Both the position numbers and the translations under genes were made by a program. A stretch of DNA of 64,000 nucleotides from Sinohyriopsis cumingii (taxonomy: Eukaryota; Mollusca; Bivalvia; Unionida; Unionidae), in the NCBI GenBank assembly GCA_028554795.2, contig CM068829.1, forward strand, positions 130,898,016 through 130,962,015, read 5' to 3'. This document shows positions 39,107 through 59,235 of this stretch, piece by piece. How positions within the stretch are numbered: position 1 is the first letter of the stretch; the number at the start of each line of letters is the position of its first letter. Under the pieces are notes generated by a model. The model searched no databases. It had not been told where the DNA came from and saw only the letters and a program-made list of their open reading frames with translations.

Positions 39107-39434
39107 AGTAGTAAGAAGGGGCACCGTACGTACAATGGGAATTAGCATTACAGACCCCCCCTGGGCAAATCTACGTACAATGGAAATTTAACATGTCGAA
39201 AAATCGTGGGCAAATCTACGTACAAGGGGAATTAACATGGGAATAAATCGTGGGCCACTTTACGTACAAGGGGAATTTAACATGGGGAATAGAGTTTGGG
39301 CTTGTTTAGGGACAAGGGGAATTAAATATGGGATTTTTTTTTTTTTTTAAATTTTTTTTTAAAAAAAGGGGTAGGCAATTGAAAAGTCATTCTCTTTTCG
39401 AGAAATATGGCTGGCCCTGAAAAGGGCCTTTGGC
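39107..39434. repeat. Left terminal inverted repeat
   Basis: It pairs with 58905-59235. The outer 230 bp match nearly perfectly. The poly(A/T) stretch near 39337-39367 differs in length, and the inner end contains a histone-type stem-loop. Four to five iterations of a TACGTACAAGGGGAATT-like unit, about 45 bp apart, start near 39126, 39172, 39219, 39263 and 39308. Confidence 0.95.
39413..39429 (-). terminator. Histone-type 3' stem-loop SL1 (left TIR)
   Basis: The minus strand reads CCAAAGGCCCT, a T-rich loop, AGGGCC, AGCCA, then a purine-rich CTCGAAAAGAGAATG downstream element. This matches the replication-dependent histone mRNA 3' signal bound by SLBP and U7 snRNP. It lies 20-25 nt after the stop of the gene at 39453. 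The loop has one extra T relative to the right TIR copy. Confidence 0.75.
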
Positions 39435-39452
39435 TTTCTTCTGCTTCTTCTT

Positions 39453-40049
39453 CTATTTCCTCCATTTCCTCATCCATCCCCTAATCTTTCCCCAAATTCC
39501 TTTGTTCTTCCTTTTTTCTTTTTCAGGTAACCAGTCTGGGTGACCCATAGCCCTGAACTTCTCTTGTATCTTGATCCAATTGTTGTTGAGTTTGTCAAAG
39601 GCCTCTTTTTTCTTTAAGTTTTCCTTATCCTTTCGTTCTTTATTCCACTTGTCTTTGATCTTTTTCACTTCTTCCTCCATTACTTTTCTCATAAGTTGTT
39701 CCGATTTCTTAAGCTGGTCAAAACCTTTTCTGACAAAGGACCACTCTGTCCATTCCATAACGTCTTCCAAAAAGCACCTGACTTCTATTACATTATCCAT
39801 GGCTTCCTTTAAGTGACCAATCTTTACATACTCTGGATCTGTAAAGCCTCTTAGTCTTTTTACTTCTTCTTCTATCATCTCTTTCACCAGATCCATAGCT
39901 AATTTCAGCTTGGTCACTTGTCTTCTGACAAAATCTCGGGTAAGTTCATGTTTCCATTCTCGTTCAGTCCTTTCCACTGCATAAGCTCCATCCACCATCC
40001 AATACCAAATGTCTTTCAACTGGTTAAACAATTCTGTTACAGCTACCAT
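39453..40049 (-). CDS. Unknown charged helical protein, Polinton left-end gene 1
   Basis: I chose the second Met (MVAVTELFNQLKDIW) because a TATA-like CTATAAGAA lies at about 40098-40106 and would start transcription downstream of the upstream Met at 40082. The protein, about 198 residues, is helical, Lys/Glu-rich and probably coiled coil. It contains two similar segments: one with LVKEMIEEEVKRLRGF, the other with LMRKVMEEEVKKIKDKW. It ends in a strongly basic tail (KEKRKNKGIWGK). Similar L-x-x-x-x-(E/R)EE-V segments occur in the next two genes, suggesting a diverged paralogous family. It has no poly(A) signal, and a histone-type stem-loop follows the stop. Confidence 0.65.
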   Translation of the reverse strand: MVAVTELFNQLKDIWYWMVDGAYAVERTEREWKHELTRDFVRRQVTKLKLAMDLVKEMIEEEVKRLRGFTDPEYVKIGHLKEAMDNVIEVRCFLEDVMEWTEWSFVRKGFDQLKKSEQLMRKVMEEEVKKIKDKWNKERKDKENLKKKEAFDKLNNNWIKIQEKFRAMGHPDWLPEKEKRKNKGIWGKIRGWMRKWRK

Positions 40050-40081
40050 CTTCCTTGTCTTTATTCCGTAGAATGGTTCCA

Positions 40082-40195
40082 ACGACGAACGTGGTGGGTT
40101 CTTATAGTGAAAGCGCGGACGTGATGGAAAACATCCCCTAAAACATAAAATTGATCTTACCTAGATCATGACCAAGCAACGCGCGGACGTGAAGG
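40082..40195 (-). promoter_or_regulatory. Repeated promoter block A
   Basis: On the minus strand: GGTCATGATCTAGGTAAGAT, TTTTAGGGGATGTTTTCC, ATCACGTCCGCGC, TTTCACTATAAGAAC. The same order recurs at 40850-40940 and in part at 41707-41745, each just upstream of a stem-loop-ended gene. The G-A-C-G-T-G/A core resembles a CRE half-site. A second GCGCGGACGTGAAGGAAAAC copy lies at 40179-40198. Confidence 0.7.
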
Positions 40196-40444
40196 AAAAC
40201 ATCACCCTACTTTCTCATTTCATATAATAAAACCCTAACTATACTCTCCACATACGCTAAGAAACAATAAAGAAACCCATAATCTACTATTCACACAAAC
40301 TTACGTGAGCAGTTACAAACACAATCACTAACACACAAACACATACACTTGCATTATTTAAAAAAGAGTTAGTGTTTATATTCACACTACTCTACCTACA
40401 CACATTGGCAAATTGATAGTTATTTCTTTTCTAGAGTATTGGGT

Positions 40445-40460
40445 AGCCCTTAAAAGGGCT
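40445..40460 (-). terminator. Histone-type 3' stem-loop SL2
   Basis: The minus strand reads AAAACAGCCCT-TTTA-AGGGCTACCCA, then a purine-rich AGAAAAGAAATAAC element about 10 nt downstream. It has a 6-bp stem, a 4-nt loop and the ACCCA flank, as in metazoan histone mRNAs. It is about 80 nt from the stop at 40542. Confidence 0.85.
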
Positions 40461-40541
40461 GTTTTTTTGAACTCCAGATGCACCTATCTAATGATGGCAC
40501 CTTCCTGGCCTGGCGCCACACACGCATCTTCTTCCCCAGTC

Positions 40542-40796
40542 TCATTTCACCTTTCTTCTGGGGAGCGCAGAGGGAGGATGATTCGCTTCAACACCCCAAT
40601 CCTCTGTCTCGGGAATATTGTACGACATCCTCTCTCCTATTTTCTTTTCCTCCTCTTCCCTCTGTCTTCTCTCCTCCTGTTCCTTCTTTATTCTTTCCTC
40701 TTCTACTATAGCCTCCGCGGCCAGTTCATTTAACAGGCGCCTGACATATTCCAGATGTATCTGGAGTTCAAGAAGTTTGCTTATTCTGCTATTCAT
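40542..40796 (-). CDS. Unknown coiled-coil protein, Polinton left-end gene 2
   Basis: 84 residues starting at the only ATG of the frame (MNSRISKLLELQIHLEYVRR). Upstream codons lack ATG, and the TATA (CTATAAATT, 40849-40857) fits this start. The middle is an uninterrupted Glu/Lys/Arg helix (EEERIKKEQEERRQREEEEK). The N-terminal S-K-L-x-x-L...V-R-x-x-L pattern also appears in the next gene (MCSKLAKLNEAYVNLHRVRH), so they look like paralogues. Function unknown. The tandem layout with near-identical promoter blocks and 3' signals suggests co-expression. Confidence 0.65.
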   Translation of the reverse strand: MNSRISKLLELQIHLEYVRRLLNELAAEAIVEEERIKKEQEERRQREEEEKKIGERMSYNIPETEDWGVEANHPPSALPRRKVK

Positions 40797-40848
40797 TCTT
40801 GTGATGATCAATCAACAAGGGTAGCTAGACTGCCCAGCGAGTTTCAAT

Positions 40849-40940
40849 TTATAGTGAAAGCGCGGACGTGAAGGAAAACATCCCCCTAAAAACATAAAAT
40901 TGATCTTACCTAGATCATGACCAAAGAAACAACGCGCGGA
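40849..40940 (-). promoter_or_regulatory. Repeated promoter block B
   Basis: Almost identical to block A over about 85 bp. It includes the CATGATCTAGGTAAGATC segment, the GGGGATGTTTTCCTTCACGT segment, CCGCGCTTTCACTATAAATT and a further upstream GTCCGCGCGTTG. Confidence 0.75.
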
Positions 40941-41244
40941 CATAAAAGAAACACTCACTCACTTTTTATACTACCCATTCCTATTCTAAATTTTTTTTTC
41001 ATGAATCACTTCAGTAGACTATCCACATACGCAAAGCAATCCAATCTAACCCCAAATATACACCTCAAACACCAAAAAAAAAGGCATCATTTTAATCTAC
41101 TATCCATACCAACGTACGTGAGCACTTACAAACACAAACACATACCCTCACATTTTTTTTAAAAAGAGTTAGTGTTTATATTCACACTACTCTACCTACA
41201 CACATTGGCAAAGTGATGGTTATTTCTTTTCTAGAGTATTGGGT

Positions 41245-41260
41245 AGCCCTGAAAAGGGCT
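41245..41260 (-). terminator. Histone-type 3' stem-loop SL3
   Basis: The minus strand reads AAAACAGCCCT-TTTC-AGGGCTACCCA, then CTCTAGAAAAGAAATAACCA. The stem and flanks match SL2 with the canonical TTTC loop. It lies about 37 nt after the stop at 41297. Confidence 0.9.
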
Positions 41261-41296
41261 GTTTTTTTTTGTTTTTTGTTTGCTATGGCAATCTTT

Positions 41297-41425
41297 TTAG
41301 TTTCTAAGAATGCGGTGTCCTCTGAGGATAGACTTTCTGGCGATAGGTCTGCTTCTTCGGAAAGAGAAGAAGAACTCTTTGGTGTCGATACGACAATCGA
41401 CAAAGCCTCTGTCAGGTTCAGGTTG

Positions 41426-41458
<33 letters not shown>

Positions 41459-41653
41459 TCTCTGAAGTCTGTACTTCTCTGTCCATTCTTCTTTTTCCCT
41501 GTTCACTTCTTCTCTGAGGAGCTCTTCTATCAGGTCTTCAGTGACTTTTAGCATTCTCACATTCTCTGTCTCTTCTGGCTTCGGTATCAGACTGTGTCTG
41601 ACCCTATGCAAATTCACGTAGGCTTCGTTGAGCTTAGCTAGTTTGGAGCACAT
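41297..41653 (-). CDS. Unknown coiled-coil, poly-Gln protein, Polinton left-end gene 3
   Basis: About 118 residues from MCSKLAKLNEAYVNLHRVRH (the frame extends further only through a non-ATG codon). A Leu/Glu helix (LKVTEDLIEELLREEVNREK) leads into about 12 Gln, then a PEPDRGFVD segment and a basic C-terminus (RSRPIARKSILRGHR). The helix resembles those of the two genes to the left. The CAG/CTG tract is likely length-variable. Upstream is a shortened copy of the repeated promoter block (GCGCGGACGTGAAGGAAAAC at 41720-41739). The gene ends in stem-loop SL3. Confidence 0.65.
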
Positions 41654-41706
41654 CTTCGTAGGAGGATGAGTCGACAATGGATGGTTAGACTGGAAACAAC
41701 CCGGTT

Positions 41707-41745
41707 CTTAAAGTCAAAGCGCGGACGTGAAGGAAAACATCCCCA
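41707..41745 (-). promoter_or_regulatory. Repeated promoter block C (short)
   Basis: The minus strand reads GGGGATGTTTTCCTTCACGT, CCGCGCTTTGACTTTAAGAA. The TATA is degenerate, and the CATGATCTAGGTAAG half of blocks A and B is absent. Confidence 0.55.
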
Positions 41746-41872
41746 CACGGTTTTCGAGTCGCAACGTTCAGTGAGTGTCATGAGAGGGATAGTAAGAAAT
41801 GAAAGAGCATGAATCCAACATTCTTATAGCTAAACAAACCACAAAGGCATTTTTTTCAAAACACAACATTTT

Positions 41873-41961
41873 TTTATTCAATAATCACTTAACACTAACC
41901 AACAACAACTCTAACATATTTTAAACAATAATCCAACATTATAACATCAAACATTTTTATT
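41873..41961 (-). terminator. Poly(A) signals of the capsid/protease block
   Basis: AATAAA on the minus strand at 41956-41961 (next to the protease stop) and again at 41873-41878. This contrasts with the stem-loop ends of the neighbouring small genes. Confidence 0.65.
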
Positions 41962-41971
41962 CAAATACAGT

Positions 41972-42529
41972 CTACTTTAAACAGGGCTGACAACGTTGTG
42001 AATGAAATTGTGATTTCCACTGTTGGAAATTATTAGGCCATTGATGAACACTACGTTTCCTAGCTTGAGACAAAAGATAAGCATAATGGTCACAGAACCA
42101 TCGATCTACTTTCACATCGTTTCTAGAAGAAGAACGAGGATCAAAATGAGTCACTAAATGTTCTAAGGAATAGCCCAGGCTGCGATGATGCAGATACACA
42201 CAGTACTGTCCACACACCAAGGAATCTGTGCCTTGTAATTTCACATTATTGAATCGGGTGGTCTGAGCATTTCTTCTCATAAAGTCAATGATATCGTCTT
42301 CCAAAGGGGGCAATCCGTACGAATCGAAATATTCCACACATCCTTCTTGAGGAAAGTAGACGGCTACCCAGTGGGTTCCTGGGAGATGACTGTCGTCCGT
42401 GTTGATCACGTAAGCTTGATGGTCTTTAGGTTTGCGATGAGGGAGTTCATCTTTAGCACAGACGACAGGATTCCAAGAAGCCGTATACGAACTGTGGTTC
42501 AAAAGGTAATAAAGTTCCCAGGTATCCAT
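41972..42529 (-). CDS. PRO: Adenain-like cysteine protease
   Basis: A 185-residue member of the adenovirus-type (C5) maturation protease family of Polintons, cleaving capsid and core precursors during virion maturation. The catalytic set is visible: His53 in GTHWVAVYF, Asp69 in VEYFDSYG (adenain has Glu here), Gln99 in VKLQG, and Cys106 in SLVCGQYC. The Gln-Cys spacing of 7 equals that of adenain. Length is near the family norm (about 200). It starts at an ATG 24 nt after the stop of the upstream gene and is the last gene of the capsid block. No damage seen. Confidence 0.93.
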   Translation of the reverse strand: MDTWELYYLLNHSSYTASWNPVVCAKDELPHRKPKDHQAYVINTDDSHLPGTHWVAVYFPQEGCVEYFDSYGLPPLEDDIIDFMRRNAQTTRFNNVKLQGTDSLVCGQYCVYLHHRSLGYSLEHLVTHFDPRSSSRNDVKVDRWFCDHYAYLLSQARKRSVHQWPNNFQQWKSQFHSQRCQPCLK

Positions 42530-42553
42530 TTGTGTGTTTTTTTTTCTTCTTCT

Positions 42554-43039
42554 TCACAGGTAATAATACGTTGTCAATTCGATCCTGACTTTTTGCTTGA
42601 AAATGTCTGACAAATAACCGTTTCTTCGTTTCGTCTCCTCACTCTGATTCAGGAGAGCTTCGATACGATGGATCTCTTGAGTGGTTAATGGTGGACAAGA
42701 ATGTTCACGCAAGTCTTTATACCACTGGTGCAACACGTCTTCGTCCGAGATGAGACTCCAAGCTTCGTCCAGATACTCGTCCAGTTTTTCTTCTTGACTC
42801 AACATCAGGCATTTATCGTGTTGAATTTGACTGGGATGAGCGTTTTGACATCCATAGCAATTTTTCTTGATCAATTCCGTCATTTTTTCGACCAAGTGTT
42901 TGGCAAAACAGGAGACTAAATGGGCTTCTTGTTCTGGCCATCTCGACTTCATCATGATCACTTCTTCTTTTTCCAGGGTCTCCTCACATTTCATCTTTAA
43001 AGTTTCTCCACTAGGTAAAGAGGGATAACAGTCTTCCAT
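42554..43039 (-). CDS. Conserved Polinton protein of unknown function, CxxC-HPSQ-HxxC type
   Basis: 161 residues. The centre has a likely metal-binding cluster (NCYGCQNAHPSQIQHDKC: C-x2-C, His, His-x2-C) which I recall as recurrent in metazoan Polintons next to the major capsid gene. The rest is acidic and helical (EEKLDEYLDEAWSLI; a later LTTQEIHRIEALLNQ). It starts only 5 nt after the capsid stop, so the two are probably expressed together. A role in the virion or in assembly is inferred from position only. Confidence 0.7.
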   Translation of the reverse strand: MEDCYPSLPSGETLKMKCEETLEKEEVIMMKSRWPEQEAHLVSCFAKHLVEKMTELIKKNCYGCQNAHPSQIQHDKCLMLSQEEKLDEYLDEAWSLISDEDVLHQWYKDLREHSCPPLTTQEIHRIEALLNQSEETKRRNGYLSDIFKQKVRIELTTYYYL

Positions 43040-43044
43040 GGTTT

Positions 43045-44358
43045 CTAATAATCTAGAATGACTTCTCTCAAACTGTTGATTTCTATGGTATTATCGAATT
43101 CGGCATACAGGATGACGTTCACCGTTACATCAGGGTCTCGGTTTGCAAACTTAATTTCCACACGAATCTGGCCGGATTTTATAGGGTGGAAATGTCCCTC
43201 GTCGCTGCCTTGGTCAGGAGTGAAATCGAAAGCCCACAAAGCATAGCCTCCTACATAATCGTCGTACGTAATACCGTGACTGGTGTTGGTTCCTAACTGG
43301 CCGGTGGCTTCGTACAGGGACAAGTACGATCTCAAGTAATTCTTGTTCTGAAAGTCAGGCTCAAAGGGTCGGGTACACAAGGTCTTGCCATCGGGACTGA
43401 CTTCGATCTTGGACACGCCAAAGTGTTGAAAGTAGAAAGGATTTTTAGCCAAAGCTCCGTTGAAGGCTTCATTTTCGACGATACCAACGATCAAACGTTT
43501 GGGTAACTGTCCTTGGAACAGATGATCTTCGATCATGGATCGCTGTCCCTTGGGAATGGTGAAGGTTTTCACTTCCACGCGTCGGATCGGATACTTAGCG
43601 GTCGTTCTGCTCAACGTCTGACTGATGTCGTTACCCACTTTAGGTAACACTTCTACGCGTCGTACGTAGAGCCTGGCTTCCTCGATGACAGTTTTGCAAG
43701 CAGTATTACCTATCAAATGGAAAGCGGCACTGCTACGATTCAGTCTCAGGCGGACATTCACCCCGTTCAGCAAATATTTCTCTTGCAACCACATGTCCAA
43801 ATGCAAACGATCCATTAGTTCTAAACTTTGTCCGTTTTTGATTTTGTCTCTTCGTTCTACAAATCCGTCATTGTTTGGTGTTTTGGTTGCATCAGTTTCG
43901 AATGTTTCAAACTGGCCTGCTTCGTCAGCTTCCCATACCACACAGGCATTGAGATGAGTGTTCTTGGCGTCTATTCCGTACGTCAAGGGATTTTCCAGGT
44001 ACGCTCGATAAGGGCAAGTATCCATGCTGCTGCTGACCAGTTTGTTGTTCAAGTACAAGTCCACTCCGCTAAACAAGGAATGCATGAAATTGTTGACGGG
44101 AGCTATTACCTCATCGCCATCTAGGGTCGAATTGTCCTCATCGACAACTTTGACTTTCAAGTACAAGTAACTGCTATTCAGATCGATGTAATCTTCGGGC
44201 TGTCCTTTGATTTCAAACTCGATGGGAGCTGAGGCTGTCAATGAGGAGACGGGGTGAAATTCCACCCATTGGGATTCTTGCATCGTCATCATGGTGGAGG
44301 GCATGGAAAACAGATCCATTTCCGTCTTGGAACAAGCGCAAGACTCTCGGTGCATCAT
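43045..44358 (-). CDS. MCP: Major capsid protein (double jelly-roll)
   Basis: 437 residues, uninterrupted. The N-terminal part has the typical Polinton capsid signature: SQWVEFHPVSS, a PIEFEIKGQPEDYIDLNSSY strand and YLYLKVKVV, followed by NNFMHSLFSGVDLYLN. Later segments (YPIRRVEVKTFTIPKGQ, FQGQLPKRLIVGIV, YALWAFDFTPDQG, then GQIRVEIKF) fit the second barrel. This family builds pseudo-hexameric trimers of icosahedral shells. It starts at the first of two adjacent Met codons, 16 nt after the protein VI-like gene. Known as PY in early Polinton nomenclature, to my recollection. Confidence 0.92.
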   Translation of the reverse strand: MMHRESCACSKTEMDLFSMPSTMMTMQESQWVEFHPVSSLTASAPIEFEIKGQPEDYIDLNSSYLYLKVKVVDEDNSTLDGDEVIAPVNNFMHSLFSGVDLYLNNKLVSSSMDTCPYRAYLENPLTYGIDAKNTHLNACVVWEADEAGQFETFETDATKTPNNDGFVERRDKIKNGQSLELMDRLHLDMWLQEKYLLNGVNVRLRLNRSSAAFHLIGNTACKTVIEEARLYVRRVEVLPKVGNDISQTLSRTTAKYPIRRVEVKTFTIPKGQRSMIEDHLFQGQLPKRLIVGIVENEAFNGALAKNPFYFQHFGVSKIEVSPDGKTLCTRPFEPDFQNKNYLRSYLSLYEATGQLGTNTSHGITYDDYVGGYALWAFDFTPDQGSDEGHFHPIKSGQIRVEIKFANRDPDVTVNVILYAEFDNTIEINSLREVILDY

Positions 44359-44374
44359 TTTTTTGTCTCTTTTC

Positions 44375-44791
44375 TCAATAATCGAAAACGTCTAAGTCTC
44401 GAACGGTTCTTCTTTTCTTGGCCTTTCTAGCTTGAAGTCTGGTGAAAGGGTGTTTTCTTCGTCGTCTCTTTCTGCCTTGTCCTTGCTGAATGCCTGACTC
44501 GGTAGCGTGCAGGGCATTTATAGGTGTGTCTCGTCGGCCTAAAATGTCTTTGCCCGTTTGCAGCAAGACATTTTTGCCTGCCCTCATGAAGGCTTCTTTA
44601 GGGTTTTGTTTGTCGATGATGACATTTTGGAGAAATTCTTTGCCTTGCGTCAGTGCCGCATCTTTCAAGGCGTGCAATCCGCGTGTCACCATCGGTTTCA
44701 ACACCGGGGCCACCGAACGAAAGGCTGATTTCAGCATATCTCCTAAACCGTGTCCTCGCTGTCGAGCAACCCCTCGGTACACTGGATACAT
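44375..44791 (-). CDS. Protein VI-like amphipathic/basic capsid-associated protein
   Basis: 138 residues. The N-terminus has GHGLGDMLKSAFRSVAPVLK, an amphipathic helix like the membrane-lytic helix of adenovirus protein VI. A middle region (QNPKEAFMRAGKN) follows. The C-terminus is very basic (RKRRRRKHPF, RKAKKRRTVRDLDVFDY). A QQGQ-GR segment near residue 105 fits the adenain-type consensus (M/I/L/N/Q)-x-G-x-G, so the basic tail could be cleaved off by the neighbouring protease (inference). It lies between the penton-like and major capsid genes. A core (pVII/pX) function is the alternative. Confidence 0.7.
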   Translation of the reverse strand: MYPVYRGVARQRGHGLGDMLKSAFRSVAPVLKPMVTRGLHALKDAALTQGKEFLQNVIIDKQNPKEAFMRAGKNVLLQTGKDILGRRDTPINALHATESGIQQGQGRKRRRRKHPFTRLQARKAKKRRTVRDLDVFDY

Positions 44792-44832
44792 GACTTACGA
44801 GTCGTGAGAGAACCGTTTTCGAAAATGGAGTT

Positions 44833-45723
44833 TCACCGTGACTTTTCCTTTGGTGAATGAATATTTTGTCCCAAATCTCCTTTTGTAGCAATGTTGACCG
44901 TGTCCAAATAAGACTTGCTGACAGGCAAATAGTGAGGATGGACAAATTCGCGGTGGACGTGGTAAGTGTTTCCACCTTCCTCGTCAGCGTTTGTGGCAGA
45001 ATCCACTTTGAAAGGAATGACACGCAGTAACGGTACGGAGGTGTGTCCCACCACGTTGTACTCCACCACATCGGAATACACGAACATCAAATTCAGTCCT
45101 TGATTCAGTTCTACTGGGGCACGAAATAACTTGCTAAAAGACTCGTTGTCGTAAACGATGGGTAATTCGTTTTTCTTCATCATGGTCATTCTCATGTCCA
45201 TGTCTCCGCCCAACATGTCAAACAATTCAGGACAAAATAAAATGGACACGATTTTACTCCCGTCAAATTTCATCAAGAAGCGACGAGCTGCTTTGTGGTA
45301 TTCCATGGTGACACTTTTTTTGGCATCCTCCAAAGCTTTCAGAAACACGACATTAAACCTGGAGGTGATGGTGCTGACCAAATGTTGACCACTAAAATAA
45401 TAGCCTGGGGGAATGAACAAGTGATAGGTGGTGTACTTTTGATTTTGTAAACGGGTTTTCTTGTCATATTTGCCATGGTTATGCAACCACTGTTGCACTC
45501 GCTCGTCATAAACTTCCACATCAAATTTCTTTTGATTGGGAAGGACATTGAGGACTTGGGTTGGGTGAATGATTTCTACTAAAGCCACTTCCCAATGGGC
45601 TTCGTGATCTAAGGGGATGGCCTGAGGTAATTTGGCCGTGTAACAGCACAACGTGTTCTTGGGAAACACTTCCATGGAACTGTCACTGGGTAAGGTTAAG
45701 TAAAATTGGTTTTGGTGACTCAT
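44833..45723 (-). CDS. Penton-like minor capsid protein (single jelly-roll)
   Basis: 296 residues, intact. The N-terminal pattern FYLTLPSDSSMEVFPKNTLC followed by Y-T-A-K-L-P and HWEVALVEIIHPTQ is characteristic of Polinton minor capsid proteins that form the vertices. Further strands include YTTYHLFIPPGYYFSGQHL and a C-terminal VPLLRVIPF and FVHPHYLPVS. The ATG overlaps the stop of the preceding membrane-protein gene by 4 nt (ATGA), so the two are likely translated from one transcript. Confidence 0.88.
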   Translation of the reverse strand: MSHQNQFYLTLPSDSSMEVFPKNTLCCYTAKLPQAIPLDHEAHWEVALVEIIHPTQVLNVLPNQKKFDVEVYDERVQQWLHNHGKYDKKTRLQNQKYTTYHLFIPPGYYFSGQHLVSTITSRFNVVFLKALEDAKKSVTMEYHKAARRFLMKFDGSKIVSILFCPELFDMLGGDMDMRMTMMKKNELPIVYDNESFSKLFRAPVELNQGLNLMFVYSDVVEYNVVGHTSVPLLRVIPFKVDSATNADEEGGNTYHVHREFVHPHYLPVSKSYLDTVNIATKGDLGQNIHSPKEKSR

Positions 45724-46136
45724 AATTCCAGAGTTCTGTGGCTGTCCGAGGGGTTACTGGACGTCAGAGGCGTGTCTCCGCCCAACATGGGGTTCTGGTT
45801 GTGGTTGGAGTGGTGACTGGCACTGGCACTGGACACAAGGTTCCCGTGGTTCCCGTTAGAGGTGAATTTCAGGGAGGGATTGGGAAGCAGGTAACCGATG
45901 CAACTGCTCAATAAAATGGTCCACAATTGTTTGTCTCCTTGTTGCAAACTCAAATTGGCAATGGCTGCCCCGATGACACAATACACCACGAAGATTTGGC
46001 AGAAAAAGACGATTTGCGTTTTAGGCACACGTTCTCCACACCACACCCACAAGGGTTGTTTTTGTAAATCTTGCACAGAAGAACTAGGTGAGGGAGGAGT
46101 GGTCGACGTAGCTGCGTCTGCTGTGTGAAAAGGCAT
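45720..46136 (-). CDS. Polinton membrane protein, two TM helices
   Basis: About 138 residues from MPFHTADAATST (codons upstream lack ATG). A Ser/Pro-rich N-terminus precedes PLWVWCGERVPKTQIVFFCQ and a TM helix (IFVVYCVIGAAIANLSL). A short loop leads to a second hydrophobic helix (LWTILLSSCIGYLLPNPSLK). The tail is polar with N-x-S-type and His/Asn stretches. The K-T-Q-I-V-F-F-C-Q...GYLLPNP pattern recurs in Polintons as I recall. An inner-membrane or capsid-vertex role is possible but unproven. It sits between integrase and penton genes, with 4-nt-type overlaps on the left side. Confidence 0.75.
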   Translation of the reverse strand: MPFHTADAATSTTPPSPSSSVQDLQKQPLWVWCGERVPKTQIVFFCQIFVVYCVIGAAIANLSLQQGDKQLWTILLSSCIGYLLPNPSLKFTSNGNHGNLVSSASASHHSNHNQNPMLGGDTPLTSSNPSDSHRTLEL

Positions 46137-46141
46137 GATGG

Positions 46142-47252
46142 TCACTTCTTTTTATAGTCGATGACTTGCGAAGCGTCGATCCAAGAATCAAAACTGGGTG
46201 GATATCCTTTCCAACGTACTTTGACTTCTTTGACACGTCGTTTGCCCACTTTACGGGTTCTGCGTTCGAAAATGCTTTCAATGTCGTACACGTCGTCTTC
46301 TTTTTTGGTGACACGTTGTAACTCGGGCAAATAAAACGTTCCTTTGAGCACTTCTCCGTTCATGTCTTCCAATTTATAGACGCTAGGATGACGGCCATGC
46401 ACTCGTCCAGTGACACGAAACAATTCGGTCGTCCAGTTAGGTAAGTAACCTTTGTCGAAAGTGCGTTTGGTTTTGCCAATGCGCACCCAATCTCCTACGG
46501 CCAACTCTCCACTTTTCTTGGGGACAGCCCTCGTCGGGGACGTACCAAACAGACGCTCAAACACCAACACTTCGTTGTCGGGAGTCACGTCTTGCTGGGG
46601 GACCTACGATGCTTCGATGGTAAGATTGGTTGTACGCTTGCACCAGGTGCGGTAAGATGTCGATGTACTTCAGAGTGTGGTGATGCGTAAAATATTTCCA
46701 CATGCGTTCTTTCAAAGTGCGTTGAAAACGTTCCACGATGCTGGCTTTGGTTTCGGGATTCTCGGTGGTAAAAAAATGAATGTCACGTTTCTTTAATTCT
46801 TTTTGGAAAGCTTGGTTCAGAAATTCGGTGCCTTTGTCCGTTTGCCATCGAAGAGGGTGACGACCGCTTTGTTTCAACACCCGTTGCAGGGCTCGCACTA
46901 ACTCGCTGCTCGATTTGGAAGTCAAGGGCACGACCCAGGCAAATTTGGAAAAGACGTCGATGACACAAAACAAATATTTGTAGCCACGATTGTAGCTGGC
47001 CAAATGAGAGACATCGGCTAAATCGGCTTGCCATTGATGATCGATGCCTTCCACTCGGGTGCGACTTCTGGCAAACTTGCGTCGAATGGGTTTGTGTAAA
47101 GTGTAGGTAGCTTGTTCTTGTAACCATCGTTGCACTTGAGGTAAACGGAGACTTTTCAGTCGAGTTTTGGCAGCACGATACAATTTTTGAACTCCTGCGT
47201 AACCTGCAGGATGCGAGGGATTGTAGTAAATGCTGGCTAAGACTTTTTCCAT
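46142..47252 (-). CDS. INT: DDE integrase with C-terminal chromodomain, one frameshift
   Basis: A retroviral-type integrase that inserts the element and makes the 6-bp duplication. The N-terminal region has the helical H-P-A-G-Y-A-G-V segment but no clear HHCC finger at the start. The catalytic core has Asp77 (WQADLADVSHL), Asp139 (QTDKGTEFLN) and Glu174 (ASIVERFQRTLKE), about 35 residues apart. The C-terminus has a GDWVRIGK SH3-like strand and a chromodomain (YDIESIFERR, VRWKGYPPSFDSWID) likely to target chromatin. The frame changes at a G5 run (46597-46601, C5 on the coding strand) between the core and the SH3 part. A one-base indel explains it. Confidence 0.9.
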
Positions 47253-51308: not shown

Positions 51309-51320
51309 GAATAGGTCATA

Positions 51321-51814: not shown

Positions 51815-52435
51815 CTAAGGTAAGTAATGACAATTCGGTGACCATCGAGCATGTTCTACGTAGGCCGAATCTTGCGGTTCCCAGTGGTGAAGTGACACAC
51901 CGCAACTGAAGCACTTGACTTTATCTCCTTCGCCCAAGTAGAAAAATCCGGCTCTGGCTAATTCTTCGGGGGTCGGTCCTCCCAGATACTTAGGCCATTT
52001 TCCTTTGAACGATTGAAGACGATTTTCAAAGTCGCAGTATTCCGACAAACGCACAGGAAACGAATATTCGTCTTTCACAGGTTCGTTTCGATGAGGGTTG
52101 AGTGACATGGGCAGGAGTTTGCTCAGGGCTGGATGACATCCGTAGGGGGGTAGACGTGAAGGTGAACATTCCCCTTTAAAACGAAACCCAGTAAAATGTC
52201 CAAGAGGACGAGCGGCATCACTTTCGCATCCCTCAGGTTTGACACGCACAGCATCACTTTCCATGATAGGGGTCGTGAGAACAAAGTTCCCATGATGCTT
52301 TACGGCATCGCTAAGGTCACAACGTACAGCATCGTACCCATCGCAAGGCTCACAATCGCATTCCACTTCAGAAGCCTCACACTTGAATTGTGCCTTTCTA
52401 AACAACTTGTTCTGTGTTTCTCTGAAAGTATTCAT
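51815..52435 (-). CDS. BIR-domain (IAP-like) protein 1
   Basis: 206 residues with a complete C-terminal BIR domain. It has an R-L-Q-S-F...WP start, EELARAGFFYLGEGDKVKCF, Zn ligands Cys175, Cys178, His195 and Cys202 (CFSCG, then HARWSPNC), and the W-E-P-Q-D-S loop. The N-terminal 115 residues are Cys- and Asp-Ala-Val-rich repeats (SDAV/SDAA) with no RING. BIR proteins bind and inhibit caspases or IAP antagonists, so an anti-apoptotic role for the element is likely but inferred. TATA (AGTATAAAAAGG) is at about 52490-52501. The frame is intact. Confidence 0.85.
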   Translation of the reverse strand: MNTFRETQNKLFRKAQFKCEASEVECDCEPCDGYDAVRCDLSDAVKHHGNFVLTTPIMESDAVRVKPEGCESDAARPLGHFTGFRFKGECSPSRLPPYGCHPALSKLLPMSLNPHRNEPVKDEYSFPVRLSEYCDFENRLQSFKGKWPKYLGGPTPEELARAGFFYLGEGDKVKCFSCGVSLHHWEPQDSAYVEHARWSPNCHYLP

Positions 52436-52576
52436 CTTGTTCGCTCAGTCTTGGTAGTCACAATGAACTATCGATCTTGACCATAGCCCCTTTTTATACT
52501 AGTCGCAATGCAGTCTCCAGCTTGTACATCTTTCCTTTTTTACATTTTTTATGTCTTGTTCTGGAAGGTACCGTCT

Positions 52577-52951
52577 CTAAGGTACCGTCAACATTGTACC
52601 GTAGTGTGATGGGCGGAAAGGCCATAGAAAGGTAAGGGCAGTGCGGAGACCATCGAGTATGTTCCAGAATAGCTGAATCTTATAGATACATAGATCCATT
52701 CGTAACTTCACTCCGCAAGCGAAACACTGTACCTCGTTTCCCAATCCTGACTCAGGTCCCAAGTAGACAAATCCTGTTCTAGCTAAAACATGCCAAGAAG
52801 ATAATCCTTCCCTATCCGTAGGCCATTTCTGAAACGTGTCCAATCGACGGGCACAATCACAATAGTCAGGTAAGAAGACTGGAAAATGGTAGGGTTTGAA
52901 CTTGGAGTTCTCATCGGGTTTCTCACTCGATTCTTGCTGTGGCGAAGTCAT
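52577..52951 (-). pseudogene. BIR-domain (IAP-like) protein 2, broken
   Basis: Starts MTSPQQESSEKPDENSKFKP at 52951. The BIR first half is clear (R-L-D-T-F-x-K-W-P, VLARTGFVYLGPESGLGNEV, CFACGVKL). After that the expected D-S-A...H-x-R-W-S-P-x-C half (seen near 52640-52680) lies in a different frame with a stop between them. One BIR zinc half is therefore lost unless the region is misread. It is upstream of BIR protein 1 in the same orientation, and the two are diverged duplicates. Confidence 0.75.
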
Positions 52952-52974
52952 CCTTCTAGCAGGTGACTATCCTC

Positions 52975-55900
52975 TTACAACCAATGTTTTATACCAACGT
53001 GTCCATACGGTAAGGTGAAATGATTGGGAAGTCGCACTCGCTTCTGGTATGCGATTTGAAAGACTTTTTCCAAGGGCCGACTGACGATGTGGTGAGTGGG
53101 TAAACGTACGATCTTGTTCGGTTGATAGGTGGTCACTTTAAAGTTTCCATCCTCTCCCGATTGCAAGGCTTCTTTCAATACCCCAAAGTTGACCACACGA
53201 CTGGTACGATTATTCAGAGTCAGTCCTTTCACTTTGCACGTCGTGTGCACTTCTCCTTGTTCGTCCCGGTATTCGTAGCCGTAATTTTTGGGACCGCCAC
53301 TGACGAAACTTAGAATCTTGTCATCGGGATGCCCGTCTGTCCAGGCTCCTAAACGGTCTCCTTCGATGTTAGGGTGCTGTTGACTCGGGTGATGGATGTA
53401 AATGCAACTGTCCGTGTCAAAGTACAGGACACGTTCTCCTAACAGTTCTAAAGCTTCGTACAATTTTAAGCGAGCATGAGCTGTCACGTAAGCCGCAATG
53501 ATGACATTTCCAAAAGGGTCGTCTTGTACAAAATCCAGATCTTCTTCGTAATTGACCAAGATCAAATCCTCGCGAACGACGTCCACGTGTTTCATGTATT
53601 TGGTTTTGTCGTGAATCATCTGGAAGTAGCGGGAAGGTTCTGTCAAATATTCCGTCTTGGGTAAACACGGTCGTTGTGCCATTTTACCCCACAAGCAATT
53701 TAACATCACTTTGGCAAACGATCGCCTACCTTCGTTTTTCTCGATGTGGTCTAAAGAGATGCCTTCTTGTTCATAGTATTTCTCTTTGAATTGTATTTGG
53801 TCTTCGGGAGTGTGACACCAGGACGGATAGCCGCTGGCTTCTTGTTTCAGTTTCAAAAAGGCATCCACGTAGTCGGCAAAAATGCCTTTCTGAGTAGAGT
53901 CACCCTTGTGGTATTGTTGTGTCTTGGGAAAGTGGCAAATTTCGTATACTTCTAACAGTTGGTATCCCATGTCCAGAGCTTTGAACAATTCTACGCTGAC
54001 CCAGGTACCCGTCAAGGCACGTTCTTCCTGGGTGTGCTGGCAAGGTTGATCTTGGTTGCACGTTTCGGCACAAGTACGGCACAAGGGAAACATCAGTTTG
54101 CCTTGACAATGGTGAGGTAAGACGGGATGGTATAGGTTCGTGGGAGGCAAAACTTTACACTTGATCAAGCCTTCGTATTGTCGAATGTTTTTCAGGTCGA
54201 TGTGTTCCGTCAACAATTGCGGGTGCCCTACAGGAAAGCGACAATATTTGCACACGTAGGGATACAGCGAACACACGTCCAAGTATTTGATTTCTTCTCC
54301 TTTCTCTTCGTCGGCTTGGTACAGCAAACAGGTGGCATTGGTCCTTCCTCCGTACAAGCTATCACTCGGGTTCAACGGGTCCATGAACTGGTAACTTTCC
54401 ACGAGGCGTTTAAACTCGGGATCGGTTTTCATACGGTGATTGTACTCGTGTTCCCACATTTCCACCACTTGGTATCCTTGCTGTTCTAACTTTAGGAGCC
54501 GCTGACAAGTGTCCTGGTACAAGTCTTCCATGGTCCGTTGCAAAAACTGATTTTTAGTGCTACGATCAGGGTAACAGACGGGACATCCGTGAAATAAGCA
54601 ACCGTTAAACTCGTACACGATCTTGGGGTTTTCTAAGTCCCAGCCATCTACCGAATACGTTCCGATGGTCTTTTCACCCCCTCCGTTGCGGGCATGCTGA
54701 ATCCATTTGTCTTCCTTGTCGCACAAGTAATGTAACCAACGTAGGGCTTTGACCGAGTATTGACGTTTGACAAAGTTGGTCGTTTGAGGGCTGATGACAG
54801 CCACGGTGTTTTCAGGCATGAATCGTTGTCGATACACTAAGGAACACGCTTTGACAATGGTGCAAGCTTCTTTCAAAGGATCGACCCCTCCGTGTTCCAT
54901 GAACAGTTCTCGAAATTTTCCACAGCAACGCCGTAAAATGTCCACGTCGGAACGACAATACTTTAGCATTTCTTCCTGAAAGTCGAAAGGGTCGGAGGCG
55001 TGAGTCTGGTACCAAGCGTAGAAAGCTTCTTGTTGTTCGGTACGCATGTTGTCGGGGTCGTAATAGTGAGCCTCAGGCAAATGGGATAGAACGGCGTGTT
55101 GATTGGCTTCCGTATTGAAAAAGTGAGGAAAATAACCTTTAGCCATTTCTGTCATTCCAAACGTTTTAGGCATTCGACTCAAAGGCATGGCCAAGTAACT
55201 CATCGAATCTTTAAACGGCACTTGTCCCACTTGCATGAAAATGATTTTGGAAAGTGACTTTAGGACGTTCGGTGCCATGTTCTGTATAGTACCTCAAAAG
55301 AAACTGTCCATCGTATCCGGAGAAATTGTGAGCCATCACCGTGGCATGACGATGACAATCTCCGTAACGTTCGATGTCCTCTTGGCTCCACGTCTTGTCG
55401 ATGGGGTCTAAGACCCATTGGGCAAAATCGGCTAACGTGTTCGGTCCCCGAAAGATTTTTTCACGCCCTCCAGGAATCTTGCTGCAATGAGGGCAATGAC
55501 TGAAGATAGGTTCTTGAATGCACTTCTCGCACGCTCGATGAGCCACGCAGAAATTAGGGATGTGAATGCCGGTCTCATGCATGCATTCGAAATCGAAAAA
55601 GATGAAATTGCCTTTCTTCTTGTAAATGTCCTCTTTCTCTGGTGGGGGTTGGTATTTTTGCACGTAACATTGATGTTCCAAGTCCACAATGTGGTGACAA
55701 ATGTGACATTTTTTCTTTCCTCGACATACGTGTGCCTTGGCAGTATTGGTACATATGCCTTGTCCACAGGTAGGGTACAATCTCAGCAGTTGACAAACGC
55801 ATTTCTTCTGTGAACCTTGCGTTTTCAAATGTTGTTGGTAACAGGTAGGACTGACAAACGTGCGCAGACAAGTTGAACAAGGCACTGATTCTTCGCTCAG

Positions 55901-56948
55901 ACAGGGTGGAGAGGCCAAACATCCTGGGCATTTCATTCCACAATGCTTGTGTTGCTCTCGATTGTTATAACCATAATCACATTTCTCACAATAATAACTG
56001 TATCCCAGGAATCCGGTGATACTGGTAATGGTATCGAAATGGTCATCGTGATAATAAAAATGAATGTATTTTCCGTCCTTAAAATCTTGGCCTCGAAACA
56101 ACAGAGGCCCGAGCATTTCTTGAGGGTGCACTTTCAAGGTGTAGCGTGGAGCTAGGACATCTTGCAATTTTTGCATCTCAGGAATGCCACAGGGTGTGTC
56201 TTTTGACAGGCCAGCTTGTTGCAACAGGAGTTCTGCTTCGTTTCGTTGTTTGGCTCGATAGGAACGTTGAATAGTGTTCCAGGCTCTTTTCCATTCTGCC
56301 GTGTCGTTCTTGTTGGCATAGGTTCGTCCCACCACGATGGCACGGGCTAAGCACATCTGGTCATGAGGGTTGTTAATTCGGACAAGACTCGTTTTGGTGC
56401 TGCGAAGATCGTCCACCAATAAGACCTTTTTGCGTCCAGTCCCTTGAGGAAGAGAGACGTGAGCCATTTTCAGTGTGGCTTTACCATCGGTGATGTCAAA
56501 CTGGTCATTAGATTGTTGTACGTGTTGAATCAGGGGATTTCAAGCTGTCGTGATCTATGGATAGTGTCAAGCGATCGTCTTCTTTGGCTTGACATTGTCG
56601 CTTGAGTGAGGTGAGCAAAGAATCCCACATCTCGGTGATAAACCCTTCTGCTTTCTCCAATGGTACGTCAGCCTTGAAATCTTTAAAATTCACTGTGTAG
56701 GTGTAAGCCGTGGTTCTAAATTTTCTAGAGGAGCGCTTTTCCGTCTCTCGAATGGAATAGTATTTTTCAGGGTTGACTAAGGGTGACGAACTTGGTTTAG
56801 AGGGTTCGGATTCTGGTTCACTCATGTCCTCTTCAAAATCACTGGCATGAATTTGTGCCAAGATTTCAGCTTTGGTACGAGGCGATAGATCACGTTTCTG
56901 CCTCTTACTTTCTTCTTCTTTCTTCTCGAATGAATAGGATCGTTTCAT
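52975..56948 (-). CDS. POLB: Protein-primed family B DNA polymerase, two frame breaks
   Basis: The Polinton replicative polymerase, more than 1,300 codons. Pieces: N-terminal 56948-56508 (disordered Lys/Glu-rich start, YTVNFKDF, SLLTSLKRQC); 56467-55211 (LPQGTGRKK, several Cys/His zinc ribbons such as CEKCDYGYNNREQH, ExoI FFDFECMHE, ExoII AHNFSGYDGQFLLR); 55278-52975 (exonuclease III-type YCRSDVDIL; palm motif A LDVCSLYPYV; motif B KVMLNCLWGK; motif C YFDTDSCIY). The first break is at a G4 run at 56533-56536, the second at about 55245-55262. A TATA-like CTATAAATT is at about 56995-57003. Both breaks are short indels; motifs themselves are intact. Confidence 0.95.
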
Positions 56949-57082
56949 CTTGAGTGCAAAACGTCAAATGACTCAAGTTTAAACACCATAGACTAATTTA
57001 TAGTCATGGCAAACCAGCGTATATAAAAGGGCGTGCGTCTTGTCCTTTCACTATTCATTTCACTCTCAAGCCGAGCACAACG
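56949..57082. promoter_or_regulatory. Divergent promoter between PolB and zinc-knuckle gene
   Basis: For the plus-strand gene, CGTATATAAAAGGGCG (57016-57031) is a strong TATA box about 55-65 nt before ATG 57083. For PolB, GACTATAAATTAG (near 56993-57005, minus strand) serves the opposite direction. Confidence 0.75.
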
Positions 57083-57554
57083 ATGGAAGAGACTAACCAA
57101 ATCGAACGTTTCGTCAGAGCTTTGCGAGGGGTCATTAGAAAATTCTCTTCAGACCAGCCCACGGACTACTCTCCTTCCTTTAGAGATAAAAGTCAAGATA
57201 CTTGCTATATCTGTCAGAAGAAAGGGCATTGGTCTTCAGAGTATCCAGACCGTCAAAAAAGAAAAAAAAACAGAGGCTAAAAAAGACAAAAGTCAAGATA
57301 CCTGTTATTATTGTAAAGAAAAAGGACATTGGTCTCCAGATTGCCCAAAAAAGAAACAAGAGGAGTCAGAAGAAAGGAGGAATTCTTCAGAAGAAGAGAG
57401 GGATTCTTCGGAAGAAGAGAGGAATTTTTCAGAGGAAGAAAGCAGACAGGTGAAGAAAAAGAAACAGGAGAAGAAAAGAAGAAGGGAAGAAAGTGAGGAG
57501 GAAGAAGAGGAAAAGAGTGTGACGGTGAAGAAATTCAAAAAACAGAGAGACTAA
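57083..57554 (+). CDS. Two-knuckle CCHC zinc-finger protein with acidic/basic tail, frame break at A9
   Basis: Starts MEETNQIERFVRALRGVI. First knuckle CYICQKKGHWSSEYP: the last ligand Cys is replaced by Tyr. The frame then breaks at an A6-G-A9 tract (57255-57270), and a second, complete knuckle CYYCKEKGHWSPDC (C-x2-C-x4-H-x4-C) follows in the next frame. The C-terminus consists of Ser-Glu-Glu-Glu repeats and a Lys/Arg tail (KKKKQEKKRRREE) to stop 57554. CCHC knuckles bind single-stranded nucleic acid. The tract could be an indel error or a slippage site. Poly(A) signal AATAAA at 57639-57644. Confidence 0.75.
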
Positions 57555-57638
57555 ACAAGGAGGCAGAAGAAGTCAGTGAACTTTTTATTAAAGTGTTGTG
57601 TTGTGAATTGTGAATTGGATTGTAAATATTTATAAAAG

Positions 57639-57644
57639 AATAAA
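57639..57644 (+). terminator. Poly(A) signal of zinc-knuckle gene
   Basis: AATAAA about 85 nt after the stop at 57554. Confidence 0.7.
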
Positions 57645-57807
57645 TTAATGATATAAGGTAAGTGTCTTTGAGTTTTGATTTTAAAATAAGAAGCTACACT
57701 CACGCACTCATACAAAGAGACGTACTACAGGGGGTAAAATGTTTTTTTTTTTTTTTTTTTGAGTTATTGGCAAATTGAAAGGCTATCTCTTTTCGAGAAA
57801 TGTGGGT

Positions 57808-57823
57808 GGCCCTGAAAAGGGCC
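57808..57823 (-). terminator. Histone-type 3' stem-loop SL4
   Basis: The minus strand reads GAAAAAAGGCCCT-TTTC-AGGGCCACCCACA, then TTTCTCGAAAAGAGATAGCC. This is essentially a textbook histone mRNA 3' end: perfect 6-bp stem, TTTC loop, ACCCA flank and purine-rich U7-binding-like element. It lies 28 nt from the stop at 57851. Confidence 0.92.
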
Positions 57824-57850
57824 TTTTTTCTTTATGGTGTAGGGGTGAGT

Positions 57851-58036
57851 TCAAGCAATCAACTTTAACTGCCTTAAGCCTTTGCCACGGCCAAGGCCTA
57901 CTTCTGGACTGCGTAATGTTGATGATGATTGGGTTGAAATCACTAAGGGTGGTACGGTAGGCTTAGTCTCAGGGTTGACGTGTTTAGCACGGGAAGGTCG
58001 TATTCTCTTCGGTCGTAATAAAGAAGTCTGATACAT
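57851..58036 (-). CDS. C-terminal part of right-end minus-strand gene (or separate ORF)
   Basis: 61 codons, MYQTSLLRPKRIRPSRAKH start, basic N-terminal half, Thr/Ser-rich middle and a Gly-rich GLGRGKGLRQLKLIA end. Its stop is 28 nt before stem-loop SL4, the usual distance in histone mRNAs, so this frame is the likely 3' end of the transcript beginning near 58450. A splice donor (GAG|GTAAGA, intron from 58164) in the upstream coiled-coil frame and an acceptor-like TGTATCAG (near 58029) would connect them in phase. The Met may therefore not be the real start. The joining is inference. Confidence 0.5.
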   Translation of the reverse strand: MYQTSLLRPKRIRPSRAKHVNPETKPTVPPLVISTQSSSTLRSPEVGLGRGKGLRQLKLIA

Positions 58037-58095
58037 TTTGTTTCAGACTCCTTAACTCCGCTAAAATGTCCAACAGTACCGTGACCGTTTGATTT

Positions 58096-58432
58096 TCACC
58101 CTCTTGTTTCTTTGCTGTTGCTGCTACTTCTTCTTGCTGTTGTTGCTGTTGTTTTTTTTCTTACCTCTTCTTCTTGCTGCTGTTGCTGTAGGAGAAAAGC
58201 TTGCTCCGCTTCCTTTTGTCGTTGTATAAATTTCTCCAATTCTTCTTTCTGTCTGTCTAAAATTCTCCACTTGCGGTAATGAAGAAGGTAACGAAGGTTC
58301 CGGAACAAACTCTTGCGAGGTAAGAAAATTCACAAAATCCCAATTCACCTCTTCTGAAAGTAAGTCCGGGTTCCCTTGGGCGGTCTCCCCTGTTGGTGCA
58401 CCCCAATGGATCGTTTTCTGAATTTCCGTCAT
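58096..58432 (-). CDS. Right-end coiled-coil gene, frame break and possible intron
   Basis: Starts MTEIQKTIHWGAPTGETAQG at 58432, then LLSEEVNWDFVNFL. After an A4 run at 58259-58262 (T4 on the coding strand) the coding pattern passes to a second frame with a coiled coil (DRQKEELEKFIQRQKEAEQA) and poly-Gln/Glu. The latter ends in a consensus splice donor GAGGTAAGA at 58165/58164. The helix resembles the left-end coiled-coil genes. Function unknown. It is the left half of a divergent pair. Confidence 0.55.
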
Positions 58433-58439
58433 GTTGAAT

Positions 58440-58650
58440 CACTGTCGCATAGATTGACTGCACACAAGCGCTAGCGAATCTATATAGACCAACTGACGTC
58501 ACAGACTACTTTCTTCGGATTGGATGCGCGCTGACTGAATTTTGTAACGCGTGTTCGGATTGGTCAACGAACTCAATCCGTTTCAATCCTTCCTCTACCT
58601 ATAAATAAGCGCAGTTCACTGCATTGATTCACCTGTTCTCGTTGCTTCAA
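58440..58650. promoter_or_regulatory. Histone-like divergent promoter (CRE, CCAAT x2, TATA x2)
   Basis: It contains a perfect CRE TGACGTCA (58494-58501), two CCAAT boxes on the minus strand (ATTGG at 58519-58523 and 58559-58563, each in CGGATTGG), TATAAATA (58600-58607, plus strand) and TATATAGA (58481-58488, minus strand). ATGs lie at 58652 (+) and 58432 (-). Divergent CCAAT/CRE/TATA promoters are typical of paired replication-dependent histone genes. Confidence 0.75.
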
Positions 58651-58651
58651 G

Positions 58652-58885
58652 ATGTGGAACGATGTGCAATCTTCTACGCTTGTGTCTTCAATGATGTTCC
58701 GGACGGACATACCCATGTATGTCCGATCCAAGTGGACAGTTGTCCATAGGACGGACACCAGCCTGTGGATACGTAGGATTTACGTGGAGAGGCAAGGATG
58801 CCTCAAAAGAGTCCTGATTTACGGGCCAACAGTGAGACGCAGCCTAAGGACAAGAAGAAGACCAATGCGGTGCCCTTTATGTTAA
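58652..58885 (+). CDS. Unknown Arg-rich protein ended by histone stem-loop
   Basis: 77 residues, MWNDVQSSTLVSSMMFRTDI start. TATA at 58600 and a short leader support this start. The C-terminal half is basic (VRRSLRTRRRPMRCPLC); no domain recognised. The stop is 24 nt before a canonical histone stem-loop, and the gene shares the CRE/CCAAT promoter with the minus-strand coiled-coil gene. Strong basic charge and S-phase-type signals suggest a nucleic-acid-associated function (inference). Confidence 0.6.
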   Translation: MWNDVQSSTLVSSMMFRTDIPMYVRSKWTVVHRTDTSLWIRRIYVERQGCLKRVLIYGPTVRRSLRTRRRPMRCPLC

Positions 58886-58904
58886 TGGATACATTAACAT
58901 AAAC

Positions 58905-59235
58905 CCAAAGGCCCTTTTCAGGGCCAGCCATATTTCTCGAAAAGAGAATGACTTTTCAATTGCCTACACCCTTTTTTTTTTAAAAAAATTTTAAAAAATT
59001 TTTAAAAAATCCCATATTCAATTCCCCTTGTCCCTAAACAAGCCCAAACTCTATTCCCCATGTTAAATTCCCCTTGTACGTAAAGTGGCCCACGATTTAT
59101 TCCCATGTTAATTCCCCTTGTACGTAGATTTGCCCACGATTTTTCGCCATGTTAAATTTCCATTGTACGTAGATTTGCCCAGGGGGGTCTGTAATGCTAA
59201 TTCCCATTGTACGTACGGTGCCCCTACTTACTACT
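58905..59235. repeat. Right terminal inverted repeat
   Basis: Reverse complement of 39107-39434. Ends ...GTGCCCCTACTTACTACT. It carries the same repeated TACGTACAAGG-type units. The A/T-rich stretch near 58971-59012 is longer and more mixed than in the left copy. Confidence 0.95.
58910..58925 (+). terminator. Histone-type 3' stem-loop SL5 (right TIR)
   Basis: The plus strand reads CCCAAAGGCCCT-TTTC-AGGGCCAGCCA, then TATTTCTCGAAAAGAGAATG. Stem, loop and AAA 5' flank fit the histone consensus; only the ACCCA flank is AGCCA. Being inside the TIR, the same signal exists at the left end for the opposite strand. Confidence 0.9.

Follow-up and report, generated by a model that had tools for sequence, protein, structure and literature searches.

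Passages of PMC6303110 and PMC12819152 describe histone mRNAs as the only protein-coding mRNAs of animals that lack a poly(A) tail. Histone mRNA hairpins are also on record for a bivalve, Lucina pectinata, with purine-rich elements reported for some of the genes (a passage of PMC6210712). Mavericks, also called Polintons, are quoted in part of PMC8097293 with an (AGT)2//(ACT)2 end motif. Here we analyzed 64,000 nucleotides (nt) of the bivalve Sinohyriopsis cumingii (assembly GCA_028554795.2, contig CM068829.1, positions 130,898,016 to 130,962,015, forward strand; hereafter the window, in which all positions are counted) that contain a complete Polinton at 39107-59235 (20,129 bp). The analysis supports the presence, in the terminal genes of this element, of histone-type 3' ends that carry the signals for the stem-loop-binding protein SLBP and the U7 small nuclear ribonucleoprotein (snRNP). 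We consider it probable, at roughly 0.83, that these genes are built like replication-dependent histone genes and would use host histone 3' processing, giving mRNAs without poly(A) that are expressed chiefly during replication. The Polinton and the histone 3' end are each well known; their union is new to us, and among the top-ranked results of the open-licence literature no title or abstract deals with histone-type 3' ends of a Polinton or of any other animal transposon.

An earlier note on this DNA had placed five 16-nt histone-type hairpins behind the stop codons of small open reading frames (ORFs), and all five are confirmed exactly in position and strand. Four lie on the minus strand, at 39413-39428 (unit 1), 40445-40460 (unit 2), 41245-41260 (unit 3) and 57808-57823 (unit 4), and one on the plus strand, at 58910-58925 (unit 5). 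Every hairpin stands in sense behind a stop codon, at gaps of 24-81 nt, with an A-rich 5' flank and A[CG]CCA 3' of the stem. The purine element of the note is likewise present in all five units, as AAAAGAG in units 1, 4 and 5 and AAAAGAA in units 2 and 3; its distance, however, is 14 nt after the hairpin in each case rather than about 10. A covariance search with the Rfam model Histone3 (RF00032, gathering cut-off 34 bits) matched all five (E 2.3e-9 to 2.4e-5): unit 1 at 39388-39433 (minus, 33.9 bits, E 1.9e-6), unit 2 at 40420-40465 (minus, 31.1 bits), unit 3 at 41220-41265 (minus, 31.0 bits), unit 4 at 57783-57828 (minus, 41.8 bits) and unit 5 at 58905-58950 (plus, 33.9 bits). Unit 4 scores above the cut-off; the other four fall slightly short of it, with E-values between 1.9e-6 and 2.4e-5. 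The features of RF00032 found here are the 6-bp stem, the 4-nt loop, the A-rich 5' flank, the ACCCA-type 3' flank and the downstream purine element. Searching both strands for the hairpin pattern with up to 3 mismatches returned 10 matches, against a shuffle mean of 1.19, and 0 of 100 shuffles reached 10. Across 1000 dinucleotide shuffles of the Polinton, a histone-type hairpin arose once and the combination of hairpin, flank and purine element never.

The five units do not represent five independent origins, because units 1 and 5 form the innermost parts of the two terminal inverted repeats (TIRs), two copies of one TIR sequence, and units 2 and 3 sit in a 115-nt direct duplication that is 96% identical. 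Some downstream similarity is common to all five. The location of two of the five hairpins at the inner TIR edge would suit a role as DNA, as an origin, a packaging signal or an integration signal tied to the TIR. For such a signal there would be no need for the other three hairpins to be internal, for all five to stand in sense after a stop codon, or for the histone downstream element (HDE) to keep a fixed spacing, and we regard this explanation as highly improbable.

The genes ahead of the hairpins are L1 at 39453-40049 (minus, 198 aa, helical and basic, isoelectric point (pI) 9.6), L2 at 40542-40796 (minus, 84 aa, pI 5.8), L3 at 41297-41653 (minus, 118 aa, pI 9.5), R57 at 57851-58432 (minus) and R+ at 58652-58885 (plus, 77 aa, Arg-rich, pI 11.5). 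Their stops precede units 1 to 5 by 24, 81, 36, 27 and 24 nt, respectively. A small intact ORF was found for L1, L2, L3 and R+, as the note had claimed for all five; R57, on the other hand, is frame-broken in the window copy. Judging by several lines of comparison, these genes are coding. Protein database searches revealed four relatives of L1 at 52-58% identity and nine of L3 at 68-80% over 54-95% of the query, and L2 has matches in 19 of 75 genome loci (described below). R57 forms a single long open frame in 29 of 51 other copies, with a length of 182-195 aa in 27 of them, and the stop of these 29 open copies lies 19-27 nt ahead of the hairpin in 27. Joining the R57 pieces of the window by GT-AG splicing was tried; the spliced form was dropped, since a single uninterrupted frame in 29 of the 51 copies makes an intron there unnecessary. 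R+ retains a frame of 76 aa or more in 25 of 34 aligned units, the window among them. The R+ sequence of the window folds unusually well (z -4.71), and alignment folding over the 34 units gave -23.3 kcal/mol. A structured non-coding RNA was nevertheless rejected, as the 34 units are predicted to share little besides the hairpin and a few short stems, and the frame is kept in 25. A second hairpin, AT-rich and of 12 bp, was observed at 58870-58905 (plus), past the R+ stop and ahead of the histone hairpin, and variants of it occur in other copies.

By their sequences, the terminal-gene proteins are not histone-like: with E-values up to 10, no histone family was matched by L1, L2, L3, R+ or R57 (searched as two pieces). 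The L1 model is helical with a predicted local distance difference test score (pLDDT) of 76, and Foldseek returned no match for its fold at E <= 0.001.

We next consider how far the signals are retained in other copies. The host assembly (2.9 Gb, 1138 contigs) was searched with RF00032, which revealed at least 75 places, all above the cut-off; one of 14 control genomes gave a match, below the cut-off. This count is a lower bound, comprising the best-scored 75 of 589,472 candidates, and as the 41.8-bit unit of the window is itself absent from these 75, they say nothing on the histone genes of the host. All 75 reported Histone3 matches lie in ends of this Polinton family and match its end genes, and 74 also match the TIR; 54 of the loci have right-end genes and 24 have left-end genes, some having both. 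Two of the loci on contig C11 (L024 and L046), a left-type and a right-type end with matching orientation and a distance of about 25.4 kb, are probably one longer family member.

Since the loci had been found through hairpins, retention was counted separately on the 80 non-trigger hairpins, that is, those through which the locus was not found. With up to 2 mismatches allowed, 79 of the 80 are kept behind the same genes, and 58 are exact; stop positions in these copies were projected from where the protein match ends rather than read copy by copy. By gene, the retained hairpins number 1/1 for L1, 18/19 for L2, 9/9 for L3, 26/26 for R57 and 25/25 for R+, the single miss being an L2 hairpin with 6 mismatches (L068). 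In random windows drawn from the first 48 loci, the best hairpin match usually had 5-9 mismatches, and in a few cases 1-4. AAAAGA occurs within 30 nt of the hairpin in 74 of the 80 cases, at +14 in 70 and at +15 in 4. The proteins beside these hairpins have diverged to 33-97% identity with those of the window (33-80% for L2). Absence of the hairpins from related elements had been named as a ground for giving up the idea; in the copies of the same genome, the signals recur at the same positions.

Position-wise identity to the window was measured on 54 non-trigger copies from the first 48 loci and summed over genes. The hairpin was identical at 831 of 862 positions, the spacer (+6 to +14) at 418 of 486, the HDE at 373 of 378 and the downstream stretch (+22 to +60) at 1821 of 1987. 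Identity of the HDE was 98-100% in each gene, and the spacer, which should be looser if it separates an SLBP site from a U7 site, was so in L2 (84%), R57 (80%) and the single L1 copy (78%). The closing pair of the 80 non-trigger hairpins is G-C in 46, A-U in 27 (the form of the L2 and L3 units of the window), G-U in 2 and mispaired in 5; this variation may amount to little more than one event.

Several observations weigh against histone-type processing of these genes. At least one mispair is present in 15 of the 80 non-trigger hairpins, with 5 of those at the second pair, and some genome copies are on this evidence decaying. The L2 hairpin, at 92% identity, is barely more conserved than its +22 to +60 flank at 91%, and neither L3 (95%) nor R+ (94%) shows a dip in the spacer. 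Four of the five window units miss the Rfam threshold, narrowly, and covariation in the window comes down to a single closing-pair change that lies within the shuffle range (83/500). Because the search for copies went through the Histone3 model, it would miss elements devoid of any signal; the copies are also kin to one another, and their retention of the signal does not count as independent evolution; and the conservation data come from one genome. A search of prokaryote genomes with the capsid protein of the element also revealed three Polinton loci (L001, L002 and L003) on contigs filed as bacterial metagenome-assembled genomes (MAGs; Escarpia endosymbiont, Breoghania), presumably animal contamination. 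No Histone3 match with E up to 1 was obtained in these three, but they say nothing about intact ends, since the ends either lie outside the covered sequence or are degenerate: L001 stops soon past the protease gene, and L002 is degenerate.

Some of these points, namely the mispairs and the near-equal identity of the L2 hairpin and its flank, together with the TIR origin of units 1 and 5, the 96% repeat holding units 2 and 3 and the downstream similarity in all units, would fit a set of inert passengers that stem from a single captured histone 3' end, were multiplied by the TIR and by local duplication, and have no present use. Passengers would not be expected to persist at 79 of 80 positions beside proteins as diverged as those of L2, nor with an HDE as invariant as the one counted above, and we judge this explanation quite unlikely. 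We regard histone-type 3' processing as the best explanation of the hairpin units.

The distribution of polyadenylation signals was examined at the same stops. Within 200 nt of the stop, neither AATAAA nor ATTAAA occurs in any of the five hairpin genes. The accompanying claim that core genes of the element use AATAAA proved partly true: it lies within 100 nt of the stop in 3 of 21 other ORFs checked (those at 41972, 50242 and 57033 (plus)), and most of the remaining ones are packed head to tail. A conceivable variant is that histone-type ends are formed in some cells only and polyadenylation takes place elsewhere, which would be compatible with histone-type processing and does not exclude it. 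Polyadenylated transcripts of replication-dependent histone genes have been reported (a passage of PMC3661734), and AATAAA or ATTAAA is found about 200-500 nt past four of the five stops. The empty first 200 nt at all five, and the absence of either signal within 600 nt past R+, argue the other way, and we find this variant doubtful.

The promoters of the terminal genes also contain conserved motifs. A 29-nt motif with a TATA-like box precedes L1 (40110-40138, minus, 1 mismatch), L2 (40857-40885, minus, 0 mismatches) and L3 (41716-41744, minus, 0 mismatches). In genome copies with sufficient upstream DNA, it is present with up to 2 mismatches before L2 in 16/16 and before L1 in 10/11; this count covers L1 and L2, with the L3 rows set aside. 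CGTCCGC was found in 10 of 375 control windows. The sequence ACGTCCGCG occurs four times in the window, always inside a copy of the 29-nt motif, and 0 of 100 shuffles reached four. We take it to resemble the site of the histone H4 factor HINFP/HiNF-P, a likeness that a literature check did not confirm. At the right end, R57 and R+ are separated by a divergent promoter at 58433-58651 containing TGACGTCA, CCAAT boxes and TATA boxes in both directions. Its length in copies is 208-222 nt, and among 51 copies TGACGTCA is present in 47, at least two CCAAT boxes in 50, TATAAATA in 49 and TATATA on the R57 strand in 44. Histone genes commonly occur as divergent pairs with CCAAT/TATA promoters.

These motifs allow a further, tentative reading, to which we give somewhat less than even odds: promoter and 3' end together may form a pseudo-histone regulon that is recruited to the histone locus body, is expressed in S phase only and reads the replication state of the host. 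It leans on ACGTCCGCG in the left motif and on the CCAAT/cAMP-response element (CRE)/TATA composition of the divergent right promoter. If it is true, an animal mobile element would possess SLBP-controlled, non-polyadenylated non-histone mRNAs. The many genome copies could instead soak up SLBP or U7 snRNP like a sponge and in this way damp host histone synthesis, with gene expression secondary. A sponge would need neither hairpins tied to conserved ORFs nor genes tied to conserved promoter motifs, and we give this idea hardly any credence.

From the signal, we infer the following course for histone-type processing. Host SLBP would bind the hairpin of terminal-gene transcripts, and the U7 snRNP would pair with the AAAAGA element. 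The 5' end of U7 reads CUCUUU. A search of the host assembly for U7 snRNA gave no match, and the same search matched in 0 of 14 controls either. CPSF73, acting with SLBP and the U7 snRNP, would cleave these RNAs behind ACCCA, a few nt past the hairpin; because of this cut, the mRNAs would lack poly(A) and would be made, exported, translated and destroyed in the manner of histone mRNAs. Expression of the terminal genes would then fall chiefly in the period when host DNA replicates (S phase). With the signal at the inner TIR edge, the outward genes at both ends may share one repeat-borne 3' end, and the same signal could halt transcription ahead of the Polinton termini. If this proves true, it would be an exception to the rule that histone mRNAs alone lack poly(A) among animal protein-coding mRNAs, it would mean that the histone 3'-end pathway is open to takeover by a parasite, and it would offer a direct handle on the cell-cycle timing of Polinton gene expression. 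The Polinton units would also be natural non-histone test cases for the effect of hairpin and downstream element alone.

Identity of the element as a Polinton was borne out by its boundaries and internal genes. The left TIR spans 39107-39437 and the right TIR 58901-59235 (about 330 nt); the innermost portion of the left one holds a histone-type hairpin and HDE, and that of the right one holds the same hairpin and HDE. A perfect 6-bp target site duplication (TSD), ATTAAG, flanks the element at 39101-39106 and 59236-59241, and the termini are of the AGTAGT//ACTACT type. Internal ORFs encode an integrase (rve, PF00665, E 1.4e-14), a family-B polymerase (DNA_pol_B_2, PF03175, E 1.3e-36) and an A32-like packaging ATPase (Pox_A32, PF04665, E 7.7e-8); BIR and CCHC genes also lie inside. 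The polymerase region (52975-56467, minus) consists of two overlapping ORFs in different frames, and this copy looks broken here. A BIR (inhibitor of apoptosis) domain was detected in at least one ORF (52577-52951, minus, E 7e-9), and the neighboring ORF at 51815-52435 (minus) looks similar by eye. ORF 41972-42529 contains a CGQYC motif, seen by eye, that makes it a candidate adenain-type protease; no Pfam or PHROG match was obtained for it.

The capsid-type protein gave a model with a pLDDT of 82 and 98 viral-library matches at E <= 0.001, many of them named major capsid proteins. The model matched adomavirus LO7 (E 1.1e-19), and virophage and MELD-virus matches were also obtained; we take the matched fold to be a double jelly roll. 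No match was found for the protein among PDB sequences. Its best viral-library match is an uncharacterised protein of Cotesia sesamiae Mombasa bracovirus (34% identity, E 2e-32), a hint that a bracovirus holds a piece of a Polinton. Of the 1171 capsid relatives, 120 were listed; where these bear the name of an animal, it is a bivalve or, in one case, a gastropod (Littorina), and a further one is filed under a bacterial MAG, probably through contamination.

Repeats were observed within and around the element. Tandem sub-repeats, each about 45 nt long and several with a TACGTACAA core, lie within the TIRs at 39107-39330 and 59011-59235, and an array of mostly 16-nt repeats lies just beyond the Polinton at 60607-60801. 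Three much-alike tRNA-model matches of 29.5-38.2 bits, at 26904-26976 (minus), 28551-28623 (plus) and 37431-37503 (minus), are probably tRNA-derived short interspersed elements (SINEs).

We also compared the element with viral sequences in IMG/VR. Searches with the capsid, polymerase and L1 as queries found no relatives. Bare-hairpin patterns returned 11 and 5 stretches, which include duplicates; visual inspection found no AAAAGA within 30 nt in any of these, and an AGCCA flank in one (L014). In the first 11 stretches, Rfam at gathering score found no Histone3. We count it in favor of histone-type ends in the Polinton that the full grammar of hairpin plus AAAAGA is missing from these bare-hairpin matches.

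Set beside known systems, the terminal genes are closest to animal replication-dependent histone genes, with which they share the hairpin consensus, the A-rich 5' flank, the ACCCA-type 3' flank and AAAAGA(A/G) at +14, as well as a short ORF without apparent intron, a TATA promoter and, at the right end, a divergent pair. They differ in that their proteins have no histone similarity and a mobile element of virus-like kind houses the genes. A word search in the main text of PMC8097293, which deals with Mavericks of vertebrates, found no occurrence of stem-loop, polyadenylation or histone. Virus-derived DNA that interferes with histone regulation has a precedent in the viral histone H4 of bracoviruses (a passage of PMC12819152); there, however, the virus carries a histone protein, whereas the Polinton carries a histone-like RNA end signal, and perhaps promoter, only. 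In its remaining features, the element agrees with Polintons/Mavericks and adintoviruses, with AGTAGT-starting TIRs, a 6-bp TSD, rve, DNA_pol_B_2, an A32-like ATPase and a capsid whose model has matches in adomaviruses, virophages and MELD viruses.

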